From assembly GCA_021811085.1 (NCBI GenBank), contig JAJZPQ010000022.1:1-56279 (forward strand): a stretch of 56,279 bases of DNA, given 5' to 3'. Positions 1,407 to 11,947 of this stretch are shown piece after piece. The notes beneath the pieces are model-generated. The model worked only from the letters and a program-made list of their open reading frames with translations, had not been told where the DNA came from and searched no databases. This stretch comes from Pseudomonadota bacterium. GTDB lineage: Bacteria; Pseudomonadota; Gammaproteobacteria; Burkholderiales; SG8-39. Position 1 is the first letter of the stretch; each line of letters begins with the position of its first letter. Both the position numbers and the translations under genes were made by a program.

Positions 1407-1645
1407 GCGGCCAGTTCCTCGTCGTCGCTTCCGGGTTCCCGAACCTCGACCGGCCCTAGTGCCTTTTTCGCCACGTCGTAGGCCAGCAGGCTTACGGGTT
1501 TTCCGGCGGCGACCTTGCTCATGATTTCCTTGGCCCACCAGTTACCGGGAGCGCGAGGGTGCGCCATCATTTCGCGGATTTTCTCCATGCACTCGGCGGC
1601 ATAGGGCGTCTGGCCGCGCTGCAGAAATGGGGATGTGGTTCTCAT
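1403..1645 (-). CDS. Phage hypothetical protein, 80 aa
   Basis: An 80-residue, mostly helical protein with the central segment CMEKIREMMAHPRAPGNWW and an acidic end (EPGSDDEELAA). It is coupled by 4-nt overlaps to the replication protein gene upstream and to the 54-residue gene downstream. Its position directly after the replication gene suggests an accessory to replication, comparable in place to the lambda P gene. It is much too short to be a full helicase loader, and no Walker motif is present. Confidence 0.6.
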   Translation of the reverse strand: MRTTSPFLQRGQTPYAAECMEKIREMMAHPRAPGNWWAKEIMSKVAAGKPVSLLAYDVAKKALGPVEVREPGSDDEELAA

Positions 1646-2475
1646 CGGGCGGTCCTCAAGCGGTCGCGGTAGGCGTCCATGCTCTCGCCTACACGCGGGT
1701 CTATTCCGAGCGAGCGACCCCGTTCCTGCGTCGCCTTATCGGAAAATAGCCAGGAACCGTCTGCCGTTGCTGGCGCCGAGGCTGTCGCGGCCTTACCCTT
1801 CAGCGGCCAAACGTCAGCCCAGGAATTGCGCGTCGATTGATCCAGCACCGCGTTCGGGTCATTGCCAAGGTCGCGCAGGGTTTCAAGTTCCTTGACGATC
1901 AAGGCTCGCGCCCGGTCGGTCAGTCGGGTTTTCGCGTGCTTGTTGCGCATTTCCTCAAAGCCTTTCCAGCTTTCAGGGGAAACCCAATCAGGGGGAGCGA
2001 ATGCGACCGCCTTTTCTTTGTTTTTGTTTACGTCTGCGTCTGCGTCTGAGTGAGCGACTTCCGCGACATGCTGCGACGGTTTGCGACACTCAGCTACACT
2101 ACTGTTTTTATTAGCCTTTCTCTTTTCCTCCATGCGTAGCCGGTCGGCCTCGCGCTTTTCCTCGGCGCTCTTGAGTTTTTGATATTTGGCGTGGTTGATG
2201 ATGTACCAGCCCCAGGGCCGATGCTCGTCAATTGTGGCGATTCGCTTACCATCCTCGCCCGGCGTTCGGCTGTATGGGTCCGGCGACGAAAGAACCTCGA
2301 TGCCCTTGGTCAAAATGTCCAGCGGGATCGACGTTTTGCCGGAAATAGCTTGTGGTGTCATGTCGATAACGCCCGCCGAATCGCACAGCACAAGCATTTG
2401 CTGAAGGGTGACTATCGCTTCCCAATGGCCATAAAGCGTGCCCTCGTACATTGAGTCGAATATTTTTGCGTACAC
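1642..2475 (-). CDS. Phage replication protein (O-like / replisome organiser)
   Basis: A 277-residue protein. Residues 1-100 look like the winged-helix N-terminal part of phage replication initiators (YAKIFDSMYEGTLYGHWEAI, an HTH-like segment DMTPQAISGKTSIPLDIL, and GWYIINHAKYQKLKS). A charged linker (about 100-160) follows, then a helical C-terminal domain with WVSPESWKGFEEMRNKHAKT. This domain order is common in phage replication initiators and primosomal proteins. I see no ATPase or primase motif, so it probably binds the origin or loads host helicase. It is the largest gene of the leftward operon. The gap to the upstream gene is only 3 nt. Confidence 0.65.
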   Translation of the reverse strand: MYAKIFDSMYEGTLYGHWEAIVTLQQMLVLCDSAGVIDMTPQAISGKTSIPLDILTKGIEVLSSPDPYSRTPGEDGKRIATIDEHRPWGWYIINHAKYQKLKSAEEKREADRLRMEEKRKANKNSSVAECRKPSQHVAEVAHSDADADVNKNKEKAVAFAPPDWVSPESWKGFEEMRNKHAKTRLTDRARALIVKELETLRDLGNDPNAVLDQSTRNSWADVWPLKGKAATASAPATADGSWLFSDKATQERGRSLGIDPRVGESMDAYRDRLRTAR

Positions 2476-3765: not shown

Positions 3766-4007
3766 TTCCCTTTTCCCACACTATTCCCAAGCGCTCCCCC
3801 TAAATCCCGGCTGATCCCGCTGAATCCCAAGCAACGAACTTTTTCCGCCGCTAGCATGAGGGTATGGATTCGGCCCAACAGAGATTCTTCGAGGATGCGG
3901 CGCGCGACTTCCGCGTTGTCTTGTTCTTCCATTTGCGCGATGGCGGTGAGCACGCGATGCGCCTCGGTAGACAGGCGAACGTGCGTGCTTTTAAGTGGCT
4001 CGCTCAC
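3762..4007 (-). CDS. Ribbon-helix-helix-like small protein
   Basis: An 81-residue protein. The first half, STHVRLSTEAHRVLTAIAQM and then AEVARRILEESLL, has the RHH order: a short strand, helix with hydrophobic spacing, and a second helix. It would be a dimeric DNA-binding regulator. It directly follows the Cro-like gene with a 4-nt overlap, so it is the second gene of the leftward operon, where phages often place a second control protein. The C-terminal 30 residues are Gly-rich and unlike RHH. Confidence 0.6.
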   Translation of the reverse strand: MSEPLKSTHVRLSTEAHRVLTAIAQMEEQDNAEVARRILEESLLGRIHTLMLAAEKVRCLGFSGISRDLGGALGNSVGKGK

Positions 4008-4237
4008 GCTGCGCGCTCCGATAGCTCCGAACCGAAGATGTGCGGGCAGAGTTCTCTGCGCGCCACTTTTGCGCCGAGCCGCTTTTCAAAATCTACAGCG
4101 GTTTCGGCACTGATGATCCGGTTCCCATTTTCATAGCTGCGCAGAGTGGATTCAGCGATGCCTAACGTTTTCGCCAAATCAGCACAGGAGAGGCCATGCA
4201 GGGCGCGATAAGAGCGGAGAGGGTGGGTTTTCTTCAT
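4004..4237 (-). CDS. Cro-like helix-turn-helix repressor
   Basis: A 77-residue protein with an HTH of the Cro/CI type: LSCADLAKTLGIAESTLRSY then ENGNRIISAETAVDFEKRLG. It is the first gene of the leftward replication operon and is divergent from the CI-like gene at 4325. The start at 4237 lies only about 10 bp after the proposed -10 box (4253-4248), and no convincing ribosome binding site precedes it, so the message may be leaderless or nearly so. Operators overlapping its promoter (4241-4255, 4276-4290) should bind it and/or the CI-like protein. An alternative ATG at 4270 would place the promoter inside the gene and is less likely. Confidence 0.75.
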   Translation of the reverse strand: MKKTHPLRSYRALHGLSCADLAKTLGIAESTLRSYENGNRIISAETAVDFEKRLGAKVARRELCPHIFGSELSERAA

Positions 4238-4240
4238 AGT

Positions 4241-4290
4241 GATACCTATGGTATCGCAGGACGTTTGCAAATGTCAATACCTGTCGTATC
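4241..4290. promoter_or_regulatory. Early operator pair (OR-like) with leftward promoter
   Basis: Two 15-bp sites share RATACCTNNNGTATC: GATACCTATGGTATC at 4241-4255, a perfect inverted repeat with 3-bp centre, and AATACCTGTCGTATC at 4276-4290. On the minus strand TTGACA (4277-4272), an 18-bp spacer and TACCAT (4253-4248) form a promoter for the Cro-like gene; one operator covers the -10 and the other touches the -35. On the plus strand TTGCAA (4265-4270) with TATCAG 16 bp downstream could serve the CI-like gene. The same operator occurs again twice at 5179-5218. Confidence 0.75.
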
Positions 4291-4324
4291 AGACACACGG
4301 GAATCCGCCCCGTACCATTGGCAA

Positions 4325-4669
4325 ATGGAAAATGACTCGTGGAAGGGCTGGGGGCCGCGCTTTAAGAAGCTCGCCAAGGAAAACGGCGAGACGCTTGCGA
4401 CTATAGCCGAAAAGATGGGCTTGGCTGAATCGACGCTGCGCCATTGGACCAACGGCACGCGCGAAATTAACCTGACCGATTTAATGCGGATGTGCAAAGC
4501 TGCCCGCGTTCATCCATCCCTTGTTTTATTCGAGGGGCCGCCGATGAACGCAGAGACCAAACGCCAGATTGGAGAGTTGGCGAAAAATGCGCTAGACTCA
4601 AACCCTGGTATGGTTCCCGGATATCAAAAAATTTCTGTGCGCTCGCATTTCAAGCGCAAGGGGGCGTGA
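4325..4669 (+). CDS. CI-like HTH repressor lacking a peptidase domain
   Basis: A 114-residue protein with an N-terminal HTH: ENGETLATIAEKMGLAESTL then RHWTNGTREINLTDLMRMCK. It resembles the Cro-like neighbour around AESTLR. Position and orientation match the cI gene of lambda: divergent from cro and enclosed by the two operator pairs. It lacks the S24 LexA-type peptidase domain of lambda CI, so induction cannot be by RecA-stimulated self-cleavage of this protein. I start at ATG 4325; an in-frame ATG at 4196 would run through the operators. No strong ribosome binding site is visible. Confidence 0.72.
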   Translation: MENDSWKGWGPRFKKLAKENGETLATIAEKMGLAESTLRHWTNGTREINLTDLMRMCKAARVHPSLVLFEGPPMNAETKRQIGELAKNALDSNPGMVPGYQKISVRSHFKRKGA

Positions 4670-4854
4670 TGGAAGCTGGCGGCGCGCTGTATATCGTTGG
4701 CATACTTTTACTGTTCGTGCTTGTGGTGCTGTGGTTCTTTCTCCCATTCGCCATATTCGGTACGCAGCCGAAGTTGGACAAGATGCTTGCTGAGACGCAG
4801 AAAACAAACGCGCTGCTCACAGAGATAAGGGCGCTGCTAGCAAAAACGAAGTGA
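4669..4854 (+). CDS. Small inner-membrane protein in the rexAB position
   Basis: A 61-residue protein with a short head (MEAGGAL), one strongly hydrophobic span (about residues 8-30, YIVGILLLFVLVVLWFFLPF) and a helical, probably coiled-coil tail facing the cytoplasm or periplasm (KLDKMLAETQKTNALLTEIR). The ATG at 4669 follows AAGGGGG; a GTG at 4666 overlaps the CI-like stop, so it is cotranscribed with the repressor. Its own stop overlaps the GTG of the HNH nuclease. Together with that gene it sits where lambda has rexA and rexB, and should be expressed in the lysogen. Function unknown. Confidence 0.65.
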   Translation: MEAGGALYIVGILLLFVLVVLWFFLPFAIFGTQPKLDKMLAETQKTNALLTEIRALLAKTK

Positions 4855-5132
4855 AGATCGCAGCCGCGTTAATTGTCGTAGCGCTGTTCCTCCCTGGCGC
4901 CGCCAATGCGCGCAGTAAGGCTCAAGTTAACCACTTCAAGAACGCGCACCCCTGCCCCGCTACAGGCCGCACGCGCGGGCGCTGCCTTGGCTATGTAGTC
5001 GATCACATCAAGCCGCTATGCGCTGGCGGCGCGGATCACCCGAGCAATATGCAATGGCAATCCGCGCCCGATGCGAAGATCAAGGATCGCGCCGAGCGCG
5101 CGCAGTGCCGCAAGCGTAGCCCCTCCAAGTAG
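4851..5132 (+). CDS. Exported HNH endonuclease
   Basis: A 93-residue protein with an N-terminal signal peptide (hydrophobic AAALIVVALFLPGAANA, predicted cleavage after NARS or ANA) followed by a compact HNH domain: a CPATG-type Cys, GYVVDHIKPLCAGGADHPSN and MQWQ, then AKIKDRAER and a Cys near the end. The DH..PL..GG.D..SNMQW pattern is the HNH core; four Cys (two early, two later) may bind a structural ion or form disulfides in the periplasm. GTG start at 4851 overlaps the preceding stop. As the last gene of the repressor operon it should be made in the lysogen; a periplasmic nuclease there could attack incoming phage DNA, which is inference. Confidence 0.8.
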   Translation: MKIAAALIVVALFLPGAANARSKAQVNHFKNAHPCPATGRTRGRCLGYVVDHIKPLCAGGADHPSNMQWQSAPDAKIKDRAERAQCRKRSPSK

Positions 5133-5178
5133 GAAATAACCCCGCAGTCCTCGATTTCGCTAACCTGCGACCGCAGGC

Positions 5179-5220
5179 GATACGATAGGTATTGACAAGG
5201 CACAATACCTTGTGTATCGT
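5179..5220 (+). promoter_or_regulatory. Second operator pair (OL-like) with rightward promoter
   Basis: TTGACA at 5192-5197, a 17-bp spacer and TATCGT at 5215-5220 form a promoter for the rightward operon that begins at 5265. Two operators lie on it: GATACGATAGGTATT at 5179-5193 (reverse complement AATACCTATCGTATC) overlapping the -35, and AATACCTTGTGTATC at 5204-5218 in the spacer and -10. Both match the sites at 4241-4255 and 4276-4290, so one repressor should control both early promoters. The two pairs are about 0.9 kb apart, enclosing the CI-like gene and its two partners. Confidence 0.78.
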
Positions 5221-5264
5221 TCCATTCAACCGCTCATGGCGGCATAACGAATGGAGGGAAGACG

Positions 5265-5510
5265 ATGAGTTTCGTTCTAGGCAATAGCAAACGCAATTCG
5301 CAGATCAGGCAAATCGTCCGCAGCTTGGAAGGCGGGTGCAATTTCTCCGAGGCGCTTTTTGTCCCGGCGCCGCGTGGACTGAAAGACATATACCGCGTTC
5401 AGGATTTGCGCGGGCGTTTTCATGCGTTCTACTCAGCCGACGAGGCGAACTCTGTATTTCCGGGCGCGTTCGACCGTCACCCCGACTATGCCGAACAGGT
5501 GTCGGCATGA
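5265..5510 (+). CDS. Phage hypothetical protein, 81 aa (first gene of rightward operon)
   Basis: First gene after the repressed rightward promoter, with a clear ribosome binding site (GGAGGGAAG) before ATG 5265. Sequence features: SFVLGNSKRNSQIRQIVRSL, then VPAPRGLKDIYRVQDLRGRF, a small alpha/beta protein without a recognised family. First genes of such operons are often regulators or antiterminators; there is no Arg-rich N-like motif here, so that role is not supported. Confidence 0.62.
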   Translation: MSFVLGNSKRNSQIRQIVRSLEGGCNFSEALFVPAPRGLKDIYRVQDLRGRFHAFYSADEANSVFPGAFDRHPDYAEQVSA

Positions 5511-5698: not shown

Positions 5699-5976
5699 GT
5701 GGCCCCATCGTGCGCGCCGTGATGGCGGCAATCAACGATGCAGAATTCGACCTGTGGCCGCAGTTTTCCGATTGGCGCTGGCGGCGCATTTATCGCGGGC
5801 CGGACGGCAAGGAATTCTCCGCGTGCCAATCAATTGCTCTTGCCGGGTTGACTCGTGATCATAAGGACTACTGCGAAATGGGCTATTTTGTGCGCACGCG
5901 CAGCAAGGGCCAATTGACCGACACGGTACGTGAATACGGAATCCTTGCCGATGCGGCGCGCGAGGTGCGGCTATGA
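5695..5976 (+). CDS. Phage hypothetical protein, 93 aa
   Basis: A soluble protein rich in Trp/Tyr (WPQFSDWRWRRIYRG), with FSACQSIALAGLTRDHKDYC and a C-terminal helix. No known domain. It is linked to both neighbours by 4-nt overlaps. Confidence 0.58.
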   Translation: MSGPIVRAVMAAINDAEFDLWPQFSDWRWRRIYRGPDGKEFSACQSIALAGLTRDHKDYCEMGYFVRTRSKGQLTDTVREYGILADAAREVRL

Positions 5977-6323
5977 AAGCCGCCCTAATCCTACTTCTGG
6001 CACTCTCCGGCTGCGCTGGTCTGCCATCGGTCGAGCAGATCGGAACGCCCGATAACTTCGCCAAGTGCGCCGCCGCCGATGTTGTGACGACGACTATAGG
6101 CCTCTCCGTTGGCGGAATGGTCGAGGGGAATCCGCTCACCCGCGCCTTGACGATTAAGGCGTTCGGCCACGTTGCCGGAACGGTGGTCCCTGTTATCGGC
6201 TTGAGCGTTGCGGGCTACTACCTGCTGAAGTGGATCAACCGGCCAGCCGTCACCGCGACCGCGACGGCGCTTACCTGCTTTTCGGCGGCGCGCAATCTTT
6301 ATATATCGAGGGGGGCAATGTGA
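5973..6323 (+). CDS. Putative phage lipoprotein with transmembrane segments
   Basis: A 116-residue protein with a lipoprotein signal (MKAALILLLALSGCAGLPS; lipobox LSGC, Cys14). It then has AAADVVTTTIGLSVGGMVEG NPLT-type residues and a hydrophobic segment (GTVVPVIGLSVAGYYLLKW). The pattern VEGNPLTR resembles small DUF5658-like membrane proteins, which is uncertain. Envelope-directed phage lipoproteins can act in exclusion or lysis; nothing here decides. Coupled by 4-nt overlaps to both neighbours. Confidence 0.6.
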   Translation: MKAALILLLALSGCAGLPSVEQIGTPDNFAKCAAADVVTTTIGLSVGGMVEGNPLTRALTIKAFGHVAGTVVPVIGLSVAGYYLLKWINRPAVTATATALTCFSAARNLYISRGAM

Positions 6324-6604
6324 ACGAAGAACTCCATTTTCTCGACAACAGCCTGCTATGGCAGAACGCCCGAAACTGGTTCATGGGCTTCCTGGCGACG
6401 TTTTCCCTACTCTGCGTCTATGCCCTCGTGCAGGTGCAGGATCAGGCCGTGGAGGCGCGGGAACAGGTGGCGGCTTATAAGGCGCGAGGGTGTCCGGATA
6501 GCCTGGATGGGATGCCGTTCCAGTTCTCGGCGCACGAACAAGTCAGCCTTTCACGTCCCGGCTATTCGTCGCTGGCGTGCTTTTATGGGAAGGGGAAATC
6601 GTGA
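6320..6604 (+). CDS. Signal-anchored phage protein, 94 aa
   Basis: Starts at GTG 6320, overlapping the lipoprotein stop and preceded by GAGGGGGG. One membrane span lies at about residues 18-38 (WFMGFLATFSLLCVYALVQV), followed by a periplasmic tail with two Cys (GCPDS and LACFYG) that could form a disulfide. It directly follows the lipoprotein gene, so the two may work together at the envelope. No family recognised. Confidence 0.58.
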   Translation: MNEELHFLDNSLLWQNARNWFMGFLATFSLLCVYALVQVQDQAVEAREQVAAYKARGCPDSLDGMPFQFSAHEQVSLSRPGYSSLACFYGKGKS

Positions 6605-7513: not shown

Positions 7514-7663
7514 CCGCCCTACTCAACCGCCTCGCCGCTGAGGCAGCAACTAAGGTTGCGGGCATTAAACCTGGCGACCGCTTCAAAATGCGATGCTGTT
7601 TTTTGGGTAGAGACTGGCGAACCCTTCACATGTACCGAATGGCTTGAGGACAAATTGACATGA
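7510..7663 (+). pseudogene. Small phage gene with a +1 frame break in an A4 run
   Basis: ATG 7510 overlaps the upstream stop. Frame 1 reads TALLNRLAAEAATKVAGIKP then GDRFK, but continues into an unlikely basic tail and stops at 7645-7647, 12 nt before the next gene. If one A of the run 7585-7588 is skipped, the protein continues RFKCDAVFWVETGEPF and TCTEWLEDKLT. It then stops at 7661-7663, which overlaps the ATG at 7660 by 4 nt like almost every other junction here. So the original gene very likely ended at 7663. The break may be a real mutation, programmed slippage or a sequencing error. Confidence 0.6.
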
Positions 7664-8358
7664 CACAGAACCAGGACAACCTCGTTGGCCTCGCCAAGAT
7701 GCGCGACCCGTTCCCGCCGAATCAGATCAGCAAACTCCCACAGCCAATGAAGCGGCGCGAGGAAATGGACAAGTTACCGAAGGCGAAATGCGGCATCTGC
7801 GGCGGCTATCACGCGACGAGCATGGTGATGCACCTTGATTACGTCGGCCATGCCGCCCTGACGAATCGCCTGCTAGACGCTGACCCGCTTTGGGTTTGGG
7901 AGCCGGTCGCCGTCAACGCGGACGGTTCGCCGCACATGGACGCGCAGGGCGGAATGTGGATCAAGTTAACCGTCTGCGGCGTGACCCGCCTCGGCTACGG
8001 TGACGCGCAGGGCAAGCTAGGCCCGAACGCCGTCAAGGAATGCATAGGCGACGCTCTGCGCAACGCCGCAATGCGATTCGGCGCCGCCCTTGATTTGTGG
8101 CACAAAGGCGACGACCTGAACCCGCAACAAGACGACGACCCGCCGCCAAAGGCCGCGGAACCCGCCAAGGCGAAGCCAGCGGGCGCGCACATTACCGACG
8201 CACAGGTGAGCATCCTGCGCGATCTGCTGGCCGCGCTGGAGGCGTCTGAAAAGGAATTTTGCGAGGCGGTGAAGATCCCCGCGCTTGAGGAAATGCCGGC
8301 GGAGCGCTACACGTTCTGCCATTCCTATCTGTCCAAAAAACTACCGGGGAAAGCATGA
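7660..8358 (+). CDS. Rad52-like single-strand annealing protein
   Basis: A 232-residue protein. Residues 30-155 show the Rad52/Sak-type pattern: YVGHAALTNRLLDADPLWVW, a central MWIKLTVCGVTRLGYG, then GPNAVKECIGDALRNAAMRF and GAALDLWHKG. The run ending in K..aaTDAlkkaA..fG.alDLy is the hallmark of this fold. A CGICGGYH motif near residue 45 could bind zinc. A flexible Pro/Ala-rich linker (about 155-178) is followed by a C-terminal helical domain. The protein should anneal single strands during phage recombination; no partner exonuclease is seen in the window. Gp157 follows directly with a 4-nt overlap. Confidence 0.75.
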   Translation: MTQNQDNLVGLAKMRDPFPPNQISKLPQPMKRREEMDKLPKAKCGICGGYHATSMVMHLDYVGHAALTNRLLDADPLWVWEPVAVNADGSPHMDAQGGMWIKLTVCGVTRLGYGDAQGKLGPNAVKECIGDALRNAAMRFGAALDLWHKGDDLNPQQDDDPPPKAAEPAKAKPAGAHITDAQVSILRDLLAALEASEKEFCEAVKIPALEEMPAERYTFCHSYLSKKLPGKA

Positions 8359-10697: not shown

Positions 10698-10907
10698 ATG
10701 TTCCTGACCGACAAACAAGTGAGGCGCTTGACCGGCCTTCCGGCGACGGAACACGCCGCGCAAATCCAATGGCTTGAGGCGCACCGCGTCCGGCATTGGG
10801 TGAACGCGGCAGGTAAGCCAATCATCCCGGTGTCGGAAATCACCGCCCCAGGCGCTTCCCCGCCCCAGACCGGCTGGACTCCCGATTTTTCCAAAATTAA
10901 TGCATAA
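10698..10907 (+). CDS. DUF4224 protein, integrase partner
   Basis: A 69-residue protein: MFLTDKQVRRLTGLPATEHA, then AQIQWLEAHRVRHWVNAAGK and PIIPVSEI. This is the DUF4224 pattern (L-T-D-x-E/Q-V-x-x-L-T-G ... Q-x-x-WL ... N-x-x-G-x-P-x-x-P). Members commonly lie directly upstream of tyrosine integrase genes and may be excisionase-like DNA-binding factors. The stop TAA shares a base with the integrase ATG (TAATG). An 11-codon frame at 10672-10707 overlaps the start and could couple its translation to the preceding gene. Confidence 0.78.
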   Translation: MFLTDKQVRRLTGLPATEHAAQIQWLEAHRVRHWVNAAGKPIIPVSEITAPGASPPQTGWTPDFSKINA

Positions 10908-11947
10908 TGGACAGGATGGGGCGGAAACGGGAAACGAATCTGCACCTTCCGCCGCATATGCGGATCAGGAAGGGGCTCTATTATTACGACACGCAGGCCA
11001 AGCCGCGGCGTGAAATACCGCTCGGCAAGGACTACGGTGCTGCGCTGGTCAAATGGGCCGAGTTGGAGGGCGGGAACCTGCTGCCGGCCAATACCGCCCC
11101 GACTTTCAGCACGGCGGCGACCCGCTACAAAACCGAGGTATTCCCGACGAAGGCGCCACGGACGCAGCAAGACAACGAAACAGAACTCGCGCGGCTACTC
11201 AAGGTGTTCAAGGATGCGCCCCTGGGCGGCATCAAGCCGATGCACGTTCGCGGCTATCTGGACGAGCGCGGGAAATCAGCCAAGGCGCGGGCGAACCGGG
11301 AAAAAGCGCTGCTCTCCCATATCTTCAATAAGGCGCGAGAATGGGGATACACCGATGCCCCGAACCCCTGCTCCGGCATCAAGGGCTTTTCTGAGCCGGG
11401 ACGGGACAAGTACGTCGAGGAATCTGAATTTAGGGCCGTCTATGCCCAAGCCTGTGTCCCGGTGCGCAACGCAATGGACTTGGCTTATCTGACCGGCCAG
11501 CGCCCCGCCGATGTGCTGAAAATGACGACCGGCGATGTACGCGACGGCTGCCTATGGGTTCGCCAGAACAAGACACAGGCGCGCATCAGGATCGCGCTAG
11601 AGGGTAGGCTAGGGGAATTGATCGAGCGCCTTGTGCGCCTTCCTGTGGGCAAGGTGGCCTCGTCCTGGTTGATTCGCAACGAGGACGAGCAGCCGTTGAC
11701 CTATTCGGCCATGACGCAGCGGTTTTGGAAGGCGCGTGGCGCAGCTATCAACGCCGCGCGCGAGGCTGGGCAGACCGGGCTGGCGGCATCGCTCAAGGGC
11801 TTCCAATTCCGCGATCTGCGGGCGAAGGCGGCGAGCGATTCGGAGGACATGCAATCTGCACAAAGGCTGCTGGCTCATGGGTCAATCACCATGACCGAGC
11901 ACTACATCCGCGCGCGGATGGGCGATAAGGTGAGGCCGGTAAAATGA
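10907..11947 (+). CDS. int: Tyrosine-recombinase integrase
   Basis: A 346-residue phage integrase. The N-terminal arm-binding region (about 10-60) has LPPHMRIRKGLYYYDTQAKP, the core-binding SAM-like domain spans about 65-155, and the catalytic domain 170-340. Catalytic residues: Arg in TGQRPADVLKM, Lys in QNKTQARI, R-D-L-R in FQFRDLRAKAAS (the usual HxxR has Arg in place of His, as in many relatives of this subgroup), His in LLAHGSITM and the nucleophile Tyr in TEHYIRAR. It should integrate the element at the tRNA-Asn 3' end located 325 bp downstream. Confidence 0.93.
   Translation: MDRMGRKRETNLHLPPHMRIRKGLYYYDTQAKPRREIPLGKDYGAALVKWAELEGGNLLPANTAPTFSTAATRYKTEVFPTKAPRTQQDNETELARLLKVFKDAPLGGIKPMHVRGYLDERGKSAKARANREKALLSHIFNKAREWGYTDAPNPCSGIKGFSEPGRDKYVEESEFRAVYAQACVPVRNAMDLAYLTGQRPADVLKMTTGDVRDGCLWVRQNKTQARIRIALEGRLGELIERLVRLPVGKVASSWLIRNEDEQPLTYSAMTQRFWKARGAAINAAREAGQTGLAASLKGFQFRDLRAKAASDSEDMQSAQRLLAHGSITMTEHYIRARMGDKVRPVK

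Follow-up and report, generated by a model that had tools for sequence, protein, structure and literature searches.

Two small genes directly behind the CI-like repressor gene of a prophage, encoding a 61-residue membrane protein and a 93-residue exported HNH-like protein, lie in what is, to judge from the sequence, a lambda immunity region in mirror image, where they take the places of rexA and rexB. Our tentative reading is that they form a cassette for superinfection exclusion, expressed in lysogens and placed where lambda has rexAB, and that the nuclease would attack incoming phage DNA in the periplasm.

Layout of the immunity region

The window, by which we mean the whole 56,279-base stretch of DNA analyzed, begins at the first base of its contig, and the remainder of the prophage on the PR side lies outside it. 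The repressor, membrane protein, and HNH-like genes are three overlapping genes on the + strand that extend from 4325 to 5132. The membrane protein and nuclease genes had been proposed in an earlier note, and both open reading frames were recovered, at 4669-4854 (61 residues) and 4851-5132 (93 residues). The features of the region, in order along the window, are the following.

1642..2475, - strand: O-like replication initiation protein, PR side (phrog_678, E = 1.8e-15)
4007..4237, - strand: Cro-like HTH protein, from the gene that opens the leftward (PR-like) operon (HTH_3, E = 1.7e-10)
4240..4256, no strand: putative operator copy 1, GATACCTATGGTATC, 0 mismatches to GATACnnnnnGTATCG, repeat D1, over the leftward promoter-like site
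4248..4277, - strand: leftward sigma-70-like promoter (PR-like), TTGACA-18-TACCAT, consensus match only
4275..4291, no strand: putative operator copy 2, from the repeat and palindrome search
4325..4669, + strand: CI-like repressor, 114 residues, HTH only (PF01381 HTH_3, E = 2.9e-7; phrog_8, E = 1.2e-7)
4669..4854, + strand: 61-residue single-span membrane protein, ATG start, one base shared with the repressor stop codon
4851..5132, + strand: 93-residue exported HNH-like protein (predicted nuclease), GTG start, 4-base overlap with the membrane protein gene
5178..5194, no strand: putative operator copy 3, from the repeat and palindrome search
5192..5220, + strand: rightward sigma-70-like promoter (PL-like), TTGACA-17-TATCGT, consensus match only
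5203..5219, no strand: putative operator copy 4, from the repeat and palindrome search
7660..8358, + strand: single-strand annealing protein, PL side (phrog_3290, E = 1.2e-56)
10907..11947, + strand: integrase, PL side (phrog_1, E = 1.2e-41)

The palindrome GATACnnnnnGTATCG, with at most one mismatch, occurs at four sites in the whole window, all of them bracketing the repressor operon, with two copies at the leftward promoter-like site and two at the rightward one. Those two are the only promoter-like sites within 4000-5500, where shuffled sequences average 1.1. Because the palindromes and outward promoter-like sites flank the operon as OR and OL flank cI-rexAB in lambda, the operon should run in the lysogen. 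The assignment to the rexAB position made in the earlier note is thus borne out by operators and promoter-like sites on both sides, together with the O-like gene on one side and the annealing protein and integrase genes on the other.

The repressor start at 4325 was chosen by reading as the most likely one, with other in-frame starts present further upstream. A Pfam search returned no peptidase S24 domain among the matches of the repressor, the sequence of which therefore gives no reason to expect induction by RecA-type self-cleavage. In its shortness and its lack of an S24 match, the window repressor contrasts with many of the repressors found beside nuclease relatives. Beyond the PL-like promoter, two small genes without confident PHROG matches were observed at 5973-6604; the first encodes 116 residues with a lipoprotein-like start, and the second (from 6320) encodes a membrane segment.

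The HNH-like protein and its family

The HNH-like protein begins with a signal-peptide-like segment ending ANA/RS, as read from the sequence, and carries four cysteines together with D51, H52, N66, and K78. Its match to PF01844 scores 13.4 bits, under the curated cut-off of 21.4, and it matches phrog_333 with an E value of 5.7e-5. The predicted fold is the beta-beta-alpha arrangement of HNH/beta-beta-alpha-metal nucleases, and the best PDB matches are HNH domains, weak by E value. PADLOC returned no match for the protein up to E = 1. Across 67 rows, D51 and H52 are invariant and N66 is conserved in at least 90%, giving the D/H-H pair and central N of such nucleases; with K78, these residues are conserved across the family as in active enzymes. 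The window has alanine (A75) at the helix position nine residues after N66, which we take to be that of the third metal ligand, His or Asn, in the usual HNH enzymes. Over 106 rows, this position holds A in 54, G in 24, H in 17, S in 10, and N in 1; since H or N is seldom present there, catalysis is not assured. The HNH label is a fair one for what is nonetheless a divergent protein.

Relatives of the nuclease were collected at 35 loci on viral contigs, as the best 80 of 118 in named genomes, and in other genomes, and duplicates were removed. Two of the 107 rows, both pieces of locus L133, were set aside, leaving a family of 105 distinct members, the window copy included. Among the viral loci, L030-L036 are weak, partial matches that resemble other HNH types. 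A crude signal-peptide heuristic of our own, applied from any in-frame start, was passed by 98/105 family members versus 312/1503 control open reading frames of at least 150 codons from the same loci, false ones among them. These counts support the prediction that the nuclease belongs to an exported family, as the earlier note had supposed for the window copy.

The cysteines vary largely in pairs. Both C3 and C4 are present in 88 of the 105 rows, neither in 16, C3 alone in 1, and C4 alone in 0, so that the two are kept or lost jointly in 104/105 members (Fisher's p = 5e-18, uncorrected for kinship). For C1 and C2, both are present in 100 rows, neither in 2, and C2 alone in 3. On a tree of the quick kind, built with the cysteine columns included, there are two supported independent pairs for C3/C4, in the same direction, for which a sign test is not significant; of three supported pairs for C1, one goes with C2. 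Given so few independent events, disulfides C35-C45 and C57-C86 are plausible, and such pairing would be as expected for a protein of an oxidizing compartment.

Several variants of the nuclease were seen. The 16 members in which C3 and C4 are both absent (L025, L059, L091, L098, L105, L107, L112, L114, L115, L117, L118, L120, L122, L124, L126, and L130) form a subgroup that ends just past a KD/KN-x-x-E motif. At nine loci (L045, L047, L054, L058, L063, L065, L090, L092, and L103), the relatives of which are mostly from Methylococcales-type genomes, an extra C-terminal segment has the pattern G-x-x-GG-x-Y/F followed by a tyrosine/lysine-rich end; it may resemble the PBCV basic adaptor domain. 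At L133 and L141 (G039), in a genome of the same family as the window host, a nuclease relative is split across two frames.

The nuclease profile was matched in 13/370 genomes of the class, several of them weakly, and in 19/98 genomes of the family, weak tails among them as well; both counts include the window's own genome. MW202512.1 is the one phage isolate with a match to the nuclease over 81% of its length (52% identity), and no repressor is annotated in the stretch around that match. For the two Mendokysei records, the match extends to 34% only. Plasmid matches amount to two records, with no repressor annotated in the stretches examined.

Repressor cassettes and membrane partners

A nuclease was counted as part of a repressor cassette if its gene followed a same-strand repressor gene within 3 kb, genes being called mechanically. 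In total, 24/105 members are so placed, among them some in Acidovorax, Zoogloeaceae, and other betaproteobacterial genomes and in environmental viral contigs. Conservation next to phage repressors, a check that the earlier note proposed for the pair, holds for the nuclease to that extent. Counted in the 24 are the window itself, L012, which was added by eye, and L002, the repressor reading frame of which is doubtful; L106, with an upstream HTH gene, was left out. At least 11 changes of the behind-repressor state are required on the quick tree, from which it follows that the nuclease entered or left the post-repressor slot many times. The other 81 members are not behind a detected repressor, and some of them carry extra segments. 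Phage context among repressor-less members was looked at in L003, L061, and L079; in L003, an integrase gene adjoins the nuclease gene. With so many members off the slot and few inspected for phage genes, the family need not be specific to phage defense.

In L022, L048, L053, L055, and L085, the nuclease gene lies directly behind the repressor gene (gap of at most 44 bases, three overlapping), so that in 5/24 cassettes an adjacent membrane partner is not present between the two. A gene was called between repressor and nuclease in 17 cassettes, and in 11 of these the one adjoining the nuclease is strongly hydrophobic (a 15-residue stretch with a mean KD of at least 2.0), versus 305/1557 control open reading frames; many cassette contigs are close kin, so these neighbor counts lack independence, and the gene picker missed the membrane gene of the window itself. 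Below the hydrophobicity line are L006, L020, L021, L024, L023, and L087; by eye, the neighbors in L006, L020, L021, and L024 are membrane, lipoprotein-like, or exported proteins, and that in L023 is not.

Of all loci in the family, L061 is the most telling as to function: there, the gene overlapping the exported HNH gene encodes a PF14373 Imm_superinfect protein (E = 2.6e-17; phrog_1039, "immunity to superinfection," E = 3.4e-22). The pair (L061:4675-5300) lies downstream of phage head-morphogenesis genes and upstream of an anti-repressor gene. The membrane/zinc-ribbon proteins upstream of the nuclease in L011 and L079 share phrog_8436 with the L061 PF14373 protein, and L079 also carries a CII-like gene. 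A similar gene lies downstream of the nuclease in L016, as found with a profile built from the four proteins that it then matched best, so this match is no independent evidence for L016. In the same post-repressor slot, an HSDR_N_2 protein was observed at L013:3985-4761 (PF13588, E = 3.4e-7, and phrog_17239), L016:3933-4703, and L024:1153-1923, the latter two copies being, by eye, like the one in L013; it is a candidate for another exclusion gene.

The 61-residue protein of the window has a hydrophobic helix at residues 7-25 (mean KD, 3.06), with no K/R before the helix and six in the C-terminal tail, so that by the positive-inside rule the tail should face the cytoplasm (predicted N-out/C-in). 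Its AlphaFold2 model has helices at 3-30 and 33-60, with a mean pLDDT of 77 and low confidence at the junction, and suggests with moderate confidence that the tail is helical. The earlier suggestion that the membrane protein might tether the nuclease is made unlikely by this charge distribution, although the orientation is itself a prediction; the membrane protein may still guide the nuclease, as the note also proposed. The protein matches phrog_21770 (E = 9.8e-6); in a Pfam search up to E = 1 it has no PF14373 match, with only YebO (0.14) and Baculo_11_kDa (0.18) returned. A PADLOC match to ZorB over residues 9-59 (E = 0.0073) was taken as a chance match of hydrophobic segments, and a Zorya-like reading of the protein was set aside.

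Relatives of the 61-residue protein have W-F-F/C-L-P-F-A-x-F-G-T in common, together with a charged helical tail. Its profile was found on 12 viral contigs, 7 of which also carry the nuclease, with 2 lacking it nearby and 3 ending too soon. The nuclease gene is directly behind the relative in L009 and L013 (21 bases) and in L016 (30 bases). One extra gene intervenes in L007, L024, and the near-twins L021 and L028; the L024 copy of the 61-residue protein is without a clear start and may be broken. In L038 and L040, the nuclease is absent from about 5 kb downstream of the relative; L037, L039, and L143 end within about 0.9 kb of it. No phage gene was noticed within 3.2 kb of the L148 relative, and no phage record matches the protein. 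Its profile was matched in 2/300 genomes of the order, the window's genome included. The claim of a dedicated pair does not survive these comparisons: L038 and L040 have the membrane protein with no nuclease nearby, a profile search placed it beside the nuclease in nothing but the window and a few viral contigs, and either gene is readily found apart from the other. As far as their sequences tell, the two are modular, with other combinations elsewhere, and a dedicated two-protein system was rejected.

Candidate functions and known systems

The exclusion reading is favored by the operator/promoter layout, the export counts, the cysteine pairs, the recurrent post-repressor placement, the hydrophobic neighbors, the phrog_8436 proteins of L011 and L079, and the Imm partner in L061. 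Counting against it are the seldom-kept third ligand, the absence of a PADLOC match for the nuclease, the 81 members off the slot, the few independent cysteine events, the occurrence of the membrane protein in L148, L038, and L040, and the five cassettes with nothing between repressor and nuclease. On this reading, the repressor's own promoter would keep the operon on in the lysogen, and the nuclease would fold in the periplasm with its two disulfides, C35-C45 and C57-C86. It would then cut double-stranded DNA crossing the periplasm, or stalled there, during injection by other phages, and the cytoplasmic chromosome would be spared by its location. The 61-residue protein would act on its own in the inner membrane, its helical tail in the cytoplasm, rather than as a tether, and would most likely disturb DNA passage at the inner membrane in a T4 Imm-like manner, buying the nuclease time. 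If this is true, the prophage carries a defense in which foreign DNA is destroyed while still outside the cytoplasm and self is spared without modification or sequence recognition. We regard a broader form of the idea as doubtful: that temperate phages repeatedly load the post-repressor slot with a two-step periplasmic shield, in which a small inner-membrane protein, variable in kind (from the 61-residue family, of PF14373 Imm type, or with a zinc ribbon), stalls the DNA and a disulfide-bonded periplasmic HNH nuclease shreds it, self and non-self being told apart by compartment alone. What remains is a recurrent HNH family, predicted to be exported, which temperate phages carry in what is presumably their lysogenic operon, next to envelope partners that change. 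Among the top matches in the open-licence literature, no prophage is described as encoding an exported HNH nuclease behind its repressor gene. The small size of the protein and the existence of relatives in cultured bacteria should make the idea easy to test.

Superinfection exclusion is, we infer, the likeliest function, and a block to natural transformation fits the data almost as well. There, the exported nuclease would destroy DNA taken up by the lysogen and so shield the prophage from recombinational replacement, much as extracellular/periplasmic DNases of Campylobacter jejuni prophages are described as blocking transformation (PMC3995785). A nuclease directly behind the repressor, as in L022, L048, L053, L055, and L085, would need no membrane partner for this. 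The host genome has a ComEC-type Competence domain above the Pfam cut-off, a weak test given that the domain is also present in 10/14 control genomes, E. coli included. It is the PF14373 partner in L061 that points to phage exclusion and leads us to prefer it, and we consider a transformation block rather unlikely. Somewhat less likely still is that the prophage carries a general DNase, periplasmic or extracellular, as a fitness gene (for nutrition or biofilm), and that the membrane protein is an unrelated neighbor. The 81/105 members for which no repressor was detected ahead of the gene, a number of them with extra segments, would suit such a role, as would the free separation of the two genes and the presence of the membrane protein without phage genes in view (L148), but the repeated change into or out of the post-repressor slot and the phage-like locus with an Imm-type partner (L061) argue otherwise.

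The remaining two explanations are improbable. In a Rex-like abortive system, the membrane protein would be a membrane-damaging effector and the exported protein a sensor without nuclease activity; the position is that of rexAB and RexABpp (PMC12894663), and most family members lack the third residue usual in HNH enzymes. The RexABpp report, however, describes a DNA-binding RexA that stimulates the RexB membrane effector (PMC12894663), whereas here the partner is exported, and the conservation of D51, H52, N66, and K78 is that of an active enzyme. Hardly credible is a phage DNA-metabolism or packaging endonuclease of the kind encoded beside terminases, even though HNH genes of tailed phages are described as often adjoining terminase genes (PMC9658991): 98/105 members have a signal-peptide-like start, and the gene is in a presumed lysogenic rather than late operon. 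This possibility was disfavored on both the export signal and the operon.

Superinfection exclusion by the cassette would have partial precedents. Prophage immunity regions are described as often holding defense genes (PMC12724215), and RexABpp of Pseudomonas putida is a tested example behind a CI-like repressor (PMC12894663). Like lambda cI-rexA-rexB and RexABpp, the window has small genes directly behind a CI-type repressor, inside the immunity region and in a position expected to be lysogen expressed, one of them for a membrane protein. In the window, the second product is instead exported and nuclease-like, the membrane protein has 61 residues and one span, and no Rex family, such as a RexA-like cytoplasmic DNA-binding protein, is among the matches listed for the window proteins. 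T4 Imm blocks passage of the genome through the plasma membrane (PMC9311878, PMC6832632). The 61-residue protein resembles T4 Imm and PF14373 proteins in being a small inner-membrane protein, and a PF14373 gene overlaps the nuclease gene in L061, but the window's own protein lacks any PF14373 match. In T4 exclusion, the DNA of the superinfecting phage is subsequently broken down by host endonuclease I.

SNIPE, as described, is a membrane-placed nuclease that cuts phage DNA during injection, with the host spared by location (PMC13190303), as would be the case here. It differs in that it is a membrane-anchored GIY-YIG nuclease with DUF4041 that acts on the cytoplasmic side (PMC13190303), and neither window protein matches its signature of a transmembrane segment, DUF4041, and GIY-YIG combined in one chain. 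The DNases of C. jejuni CJIE1, CJIE2, and CJIE4 are, by their description, alike in being prophage-encoded and exported, and they were shown to block natural transformation, which is a feature of theirs (PMC3995785); the window likewise has a prophage-encoded exported protein, whose nuclease nature is suggested by its fold. Cas8-HNH (type I-F HNH Cascade) and other HNH domains are parts of large CRISPR complexes, whereas the window encodes a free 93-residue protein that is predicted to be exported.
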